Shown here: positions 28,015 to 28,237 of the stretch, piece by piece
How the letters are laid out: every line of letters starts with the position of its first letter
Position numbering within the stretch: position 1 is the stretch's first letter
Origin: a virus
DNA: 30,111 nt
Strand: one strand, 5' to 3'
IMG/VR virus record: IMGVR_UViG_3300037584_000216
Coordinates: 1-30,111 of that record
The notes under the pieces: generated by a model
What the model was told of the DNA's origin: nothing
Seen by the model: only the letters and a program-made list of their open reading frames with translations
Database searches by the model: none
Translations under genes and position numbers: made by a program

Positions 28015-28063
28015 GCCTAGTATTTGTGCAGTTACACATATTGTGCCTATTTTTTGTGCAGTT
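28015..28063. repeat. Two direct repeats 30 bases apart
   Basis: GCCTAGTATTTGTGCAGTT (28015-28033) and GCCTATTTTTTGTGCAGTT (28045-28063) match at 17 of 19 positions with an exact 30-base period, close to three helical turns. This phasing is typical of sites for a protein that binds the same face of DNA, such as an initiator or activator. They lie 46 bases upstream of the rightward -35 box. Confidence 0.65.
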
Positions 28064-28108
28064 CTATAGGTAATGTAAATTATTTTGAGTCGCATTACAT
28101 TTTAGGGG

Positions 28109-28137
28109 TTGACACTTATCTGCATATCTGGTATAAT
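28109..28137 (+). promoter_or_regulatory. Perfect sigma70 consensus promoter, rightward
   Basis: TTGACA (28109-28114), exactly 17 bases, TATAAT (28132-28137): six of six in both boxes. It points to the gene starting at 28282, with a ~140-base leader containing palindromes. Direct repeats lie upstream. A host RNA polymerase should use it strongly unless repressed by something bound to the palindromes below. Confidence 0.85.
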
Positions 28138-28152
28138 TATACTATAACTAAA

Positions 28153-28237
28153 TAACACTTAAAGTGTTACACTTAACTGTCTTATAACTTATCTATATTT
28201 AATACTTAAAATGTGACACTTAAAGTGTAGACAGTTA
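28153..28237. repeat. AT-rich palindromes downstream of the rightward promoter
   Basis: TAACACTTAAAGTGTTA (28153-28169) is a 17-base palindrome. The 13-base core ACACTTAAAGTGT recurs at 28216-28228, a degenerate copy lies at 28202-28214, and a half site lies near 28169-28176. TAACTGTCT (28174-28182) and AGACAGTTA (28229-28237) form an inverted pair around the second copy. They begin about 15 bases after the -10 box, a classic operator position. Confidence 0.75.

Follow-up and report, generated by a model that had tools for sequence, protein, structure and literature searches.

What controls the rightward operon of this phage? The DNA analysed here (the window) is a 30,111-base IMG/VR record, and a putative control region sits in a 0.9-kb gap between its leftward genes and a rightward operon. 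The original prediction described this region as a possible genetic switch, in which activator-like sites upstream and operator-like sites downstream flank a strong host-type promoter, and suggested a part in a lysogeny decision. Two questions follow: what reads these sites, and do they serve lysogeny?

Judged by its sequence, the window is a fragment of the genome of an HMO-2011-type marine podovirus, the genomes of whose relatives span about 54-56 kb. Its DNA polymerase (14922-17051, minus strand) shares 73% identity over 99% with the polymerase of Puniceispirillum phage HMO-2011 and is about 67% identical to that of Roseobacter phages CRP-345 and CRP-1. Besides the related polymerase, membership in the group is seen in the matching gene order and in the homologous gap and first genes; the homologous gap was found in HMO-2011, CRP-345 and CRP-1. 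These three phages (HMO-2011 under accession NC_021864) agree with the window in genome layout and in the position of promoter and array, and they have its first gene, conserved block and structured RNA, whereas array letters, site number and upstream dyads are not alike. HMO-2011-type phages are reported to be a dominant group with a broad distribution in the ocean (PMC9038755). Literature searches turned up no account of transcription or of promoters in these phages, and word searches of the group's main papers for promoters came back blank.

To collect relatives, IMG/VR was searched with versions of the first-gene protein, which gave 320 loci, and phage isolates were added. After near-duplicates were dropped, 70 non-redundant leaders were compared. 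Because many IMG/VR records are fragments, gene absences are weak evidence throughout. The features of the gap and its flanking genes are collected in Table 1.

Table 1. Features within and beside the 0.9-kb gap (positions in the window).
Feature	Position	Strand	Remarks
Divergent first leftward gene	26795-27376	-	193 aa
Long inverted repeat (hairpin)	27393-27471		left edge of the gap, between leftward genes and structured RNA; stem of ~33 bp
Structured RNA candidate, ~415 nt	27505-27921	+	closing stem 27505-27510 with 27915-27921; covariation
Conserved block TATACACAGAAATACACAGATTAGGTAAATTCACTGTTAACCACAG, with DnaA-box-like TTAACCACA	27946-27991	+	GTTAACCAC in relatives
Upstream repeat copy 1, TGCCTAGTATTTGTGCAGTT	28014-28033	+	20 nt
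Upstream repeat copy 2, TGCCTATTTTTTGTGCAGTT	28044-28063	+	20 nt, 30 bp from copy 1
Sigma-70 promoter TTGACA-17-TATAAT, extended -10	28109-28137	+	12/12 match; kept in relatives
Array site 1, ACACTTAAAGTGT	28155-28167	+	perfect dyad
Array site 2, ACACTTAACTGT	28169-28180	+	imperfect
Array site 3, ATACTTAAAATGT	28202-28214	+	imperfect
Array site 4, ACACTTAAAGTGT	28216-28228	+	perfect dyad
First gene of the rightward operon	28282-28503	+	73 aa, TTG start; kept in all HMO-2011-type relatives examined

The perfect promoter of the original prediction is present, with a TG preceding its -10 hexamer, and it is the sole 12/12 match found within 26000-30111. Transcription is predicted to start at about 28144. 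TTGACA-17-TATAAT is perfect in 35 of the 70 non-redundant leaders; among the others, 5 match at 11/12 positions, 29 at 10/12 and 1 at 9/12, and most of these imperfect leaders have TTGACA-16-TAAAAC inside GTGTAAAACTA. Being perfect or near-perfect in nearly all of the 70 leaders, the promoter is under selection. The flanking of this promoter by sites on both sides is likewise kept across scores of relatives, and a layout so conserved marks a control region rather than a chance arrangement.

Just downstream of the promoter, two repeated palindromes had been noticed. Both copies of ACACTTAAAGTGT are exact, but they belong to a set of about four sites in two pairs rather than standing as two; the sites of each pair are spaced by 14 nt (starts at 28155, 28169, 28202 and 28216). 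A search for further sites, which the original prediction had proposed, returned 8 matches with at most two mismatches on both strands of the 30-kb record, 5 of them in this region, compared to 1.8 expected overall; none of 100 shuffles reached 8. In relatives, the initially transcribed region carries 3-7 tandem sites of 12-13 nt, ACACTTAAA(G)TGT.

An iterated position-weight model built on 65 group-I leaders gives 293 sites (4.5 per leader), with ACACTTAAA as the consensus and a less strict right half after it. Site density in these leaders is 2.71 per 100 nt, compared to 0.19 in downstream coding sequence, 0.27 in upstream non-coding sequence and 0.14 in shuffled leaders, and palindromes number 1.65 per leader against 0.62 (sd 0.11) in shuffles. 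The first site begins 12-29 nt past the -10 hexamer in nearly all leaders. Gaps between sites in group-I leaders peak at 12-15, 32-35 and 45-52 nt, with most at 12-15, and close relatives gain or lose whole 14-nt units. A phage operator array calls for multiple copies of one dyad site in a fixed place relative to a promoter, which these leaders contain, and for a cognate DNA-binding regulator, of which none was recognised. The densest site windows in both HMO-2011 and the window fall in this leader alone, and no second site cluster was found in either. The sites are also directional: the left half is stricter, with 177 ACACT against 43 AGTGT.

The arms of the sites differ in concert among lineages, as ACACT/AGTGT, ACATT/AATGT or ATACT/AGTAT. 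For example, three leaders (L040, L044 and L068) have ACATT/AATGT arms exclusively. The CRP-9/13-type lineage repeats this arrangement with ATACT/AGTAT arms. Its 23 leaders carry 116 sites, at 2.70 per 100 nt compared to 0.22 in shuffled leaders, and the motif is symmetric at r = 0.93. In the CRP-603-type lineage palindrome enrichment falls inside the shuffle range, so no array is claimed there.

Upstream of the promoter, the exact 30-base period reported for two repeats holds, while their length is 20 nt rather than 19 and they differ at two positions (18/20 identical). Such a repeat occurs in none of 200 shuffles of 28000-28110. A near-universal block ending in GTTAACCACA stands farther upstream than these repeats, and the conserved block includes GTTAACCAC in 59 of 64 group-I loci. 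This block, near-invariant as ACACAGAT(T/C)AG...GTGTTAACCAC, precedes the promoter in nearly all group-I relatives and is one mismatch off a DnaA box. The stretch from conserved block to promoter is occupied by lineage-specific dyads. These are TGCACAAnnnTTGTGCA and TGCCTA-n-TAGGCA in HMO-like phages, and TTGTGATCACAA with others in CRP-like phages, where TTGTGATCACAA occurs in up to three copies, spaced by about 31-33 bp in the L144 locus. On sequence grounds, the 30-bp-period repeats of the window are copies of such a lineage-specific dyad element; HMO-2011 has upstream dyads but not the 30-bp repeat.

In relatives, the rightward genes continue into genes for lysis and structure. The first of them starts with TTG in the window (TTGACAAAA at 28282), and relatives show TTGACAATG, so that TTG seems to be retained as the start even with an ATG after it. 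The AlphaFold (AF2) model of the 73-aa product has a helix-strand-helix-helix arrangement (pLDDT 69) and no match among solved structures; that of the divergent 193-aa protein is all-helical and also without a fold match among solved structures. A scan that covered 84,980 species genomes found the first-gene protein on MAG contigs only.

The left part of the gap holds a candidate structured RNA that covaries and is absent from Rfam 15. It was aligned in 27 sequences (alignment A7, window positions 27492-27960), giving 36 pairs, 13 of them with double changes. Double-changed cells number 63, compared to 17.8 (sd 3.1) in shuffled alignments and at most 21 with partners slid, and 96.1% of cells are paired compared to at most 46% when slid; these counts are tilted toward the structure, since it was itself derived from that alignment, a bias that the shuffle and slide controls offset in part. 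One pair (46-66) appears as GC, CG, UA and AU without a break. The G-U pairs 15-517, 17-514, 36-78 and 37-77 fit the plus strand alone, being A-C on the opposite strand, and the antisense alignment is weaker (30 pairs, energy -19.4 versus -24.2). A 77-position model of the RNA finds single copies at this position in some of the group-I loci and no match in the CRP-603 or CRP-9/13 lineages. Rfam 15 gave no match to this region of the window, with E allowed up to 1, and only sub-threshold matches in HMO-2011, CRP-345 and CRP-1, none of them inside the RNA; a tRNA or tmRNA was looked for in the region and none was found. The structured RNA is also seen in other loci of the HMO-2011 group, among them L003 (1254-1659) and L007. 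The neighbouring hairpin stretch (27370-27489) folds with z of -6.3/-7.5, and in the alignment with HMO-2011 its stem is kept with changed letters. CRP-603-type leaders (L174-L253, for example L174 1005-1165) have a strong fold with a long stem on the sense strand only; its loop is CUCCUCC-rich and resembles an anti-Shine-Dalgarno sequence.

How might the region work? Reading from sequence, we give about even chances to its being an operator array that controls the rightward promoter. Host RNA polymerase would use the super-consensus sigma-70 promoter for the rightward operon, and a sequence-specific DNA-binding protein would sit on the tandem 12-13-bp dyads that start just past the transcription start. 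With site pairs about 14 bp apart and the next pair about 33 or 47 bp on, cooperative binding could block promoter escape and early elongation, and thereby turn a full-strength promoter into a valve that grades and times the output of the rightward genes. A second regulator probably binds the lineage-specific upstream dyads, which some phages have at a phase of about 30 bp. The promoter, the array, their positions, the family-wide conservation and the coordinated letter changes are what the sequences show. We infer that a repressor reads the array as DNA, that the array governs timing and that the phage itself encodes the regulator. Nonetheless, the 177 to 43 bias toward ACACT counts against the operator reading, since a purely symmetric operator needs no direction. 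Weighing this asymmetry with the leader folds, we go no further than even chances and keep a role as RNA as the main rival.

Which protein would read the array? As the original prediction had noted, no repressor of known type is visible: none of the repressor families was recognised in the proteins scanned (Pfam, PHROGs, NCBIfam). The 73-aa protein is disfavoured. It is 99% identical in L044, whose array has ACATT, and L049, whose array has ACACT, so it is probably not the specificity factor. The 193-aa protein was set aside; some records with an array, possibly fragments, did not yield it. A DUF932 gene near the integrase was considered as well and rejected; all but one of the 15 group-I records searched have it, and it was not found in L080 or in CRP-603-type or CRP-9/13-type genomes. 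A host protein is a possible binder. That a host regulator or nucleoid protein occupies the array, with letters varying as hosts vary, would fit the L044 and L049 comparison, where the letters switch beside an unchanged 73-aa protein, and the absence of a recognised phage regulator. The regular 14-nt array in one leader is, however, more typical of a dedicated regulator, and we consider this explanation very unlikely.

For the lysogeny decision raised in the original prediction, we found no support in the form given. The window does encode an integrase, as had been stated (18994-19950; Pfam PF00589, E 4.4e-18), and so do nearly all group-I records searched; CRP-3, a phage of the same group, integrates at tRNA-Met (PMC6918029). 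The array could then be the operator through which a prophage repressor confers immunity in a lambda-like switch, with the lineage differences as immunity types, and the lineage-specific operators do look like heteroimmunity. However, no integrase is detectable in CRP-9/CRP-13-type phages or in L254, L257, L281 and L286, and this integrase-less type retains the strong promoter and dyad array. Two otherwise typical relatives have a damaged integrase, reduced to a short remnant in L080 and broken by several stops in L084, and both retain an ACACTT array. The persistence of promoter and array in lineages lacking an integrase leaves a lysogeny-only role unsupported. That no repressor family was recognised in the proteins scanned and no second site cluster in HMO-2011 or the window also speaks against a prophage switch, and the scan of species genomes revealed no lysogen with the first-gene protein. 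We therefore regard such a switch as improbable; a role beyond lysogeny, most simply the timing of the rightward genes, would fit better.

Alternatively, the array may work as RNA. In this case ACACUUAAAUG repeats in the 5′ leader, bound by protein or folded, would govern antitermination, stability or translation. The sites do lie within the predicted transcribed leader and are directional, the leaders fold better than shuffles, and the structure of the CRP-603-type leader is clearly on the sense strand (z of -5.2 versus -2.0). Group-I leaders behave otherwise: sense and antisense fold equally well (z of -2.2 and -2.5), an equal excess that is expected for DNA dyads, and hardly any consensus structure among them emerges from RNAalifold. 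A common G to A change in the right half breaks the RNA stem, and changes that would keep the pair are rarer. A local RNA hairpin at each site is thus not supported by the group-I fold comparisons, and no conserved structure of the nut or put type was found in group-I leaders. We consider a role as RNA unlikely, though it is the strongest of the rivals. Less probable still is a replication origin, where the sites would be iterons of a phage initiator near DnaA-like boxes and transcription from the promoter would activate replication. The cumulative GC skew has its minimum in this gap (54.0 kb in HMO-2011, 28.0 kb in the window), the leader is AT-rich (74%) with tandem direct repeats and dyads, and a DnaA-like TTAACCACA occurs in most loci. 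Yet the outward orientation of the genes on either side of the gap would explain the skew just as well, an origin does not need strict spacing to the transcription start, and the DnaA-like boxes each carry one mismatch and are mostly the single conserved word.

The operator reading has known parallels. At pR and pL of phage lambda, a strong host-type promoter is under several tandem dyad operators bound by CI and Cro, and the promoter and dyads described here form a similar pair. Unlike the lambda operators, the sites do not overlie the promoter but follow it in the initially transcribed region, as 3-7 copies of 12-13 nt; neither a CI/Cro-type gene nor a second operator cluster was seen, and the array is kept without an integrase. 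Mycobacteriophage L5 stoperators are many short directional repressor sites in transcribed DNA, scattered over the genome; ours are likewise short, directional and in transcribed DNA, but confined to one leader instead of dispersed. The lambdoid nut and HK022 put leader elements are repeats that closely follow an early phage promoter. The placement is alike, whereas group-I leaders lack a conserved RNA fold and the CRP-603-type leader is folded. It is conceivable, though we hold it with reserve, that the region represents an undescribed early-control module, widespread in an abundant group of ocean phages, in which a super-consensus promoter is restrained by a fast re-specified operator array read by an unrecognised regulator family, and which in some members of the group is coupled to the new ~415-nt RNA upstream on the same strand.

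The covarying RNA next to the control region offers a second concrete target for study. If the operator reading is true, the array DNA would serve as bait for a regulator of ocean phages, and the array would give a handle on the timing of infection in slow-growing marine hosts. With a layout that stays constant and site letters that switch together between lineages, the region resembles a tunable switch acting on a block of genes.
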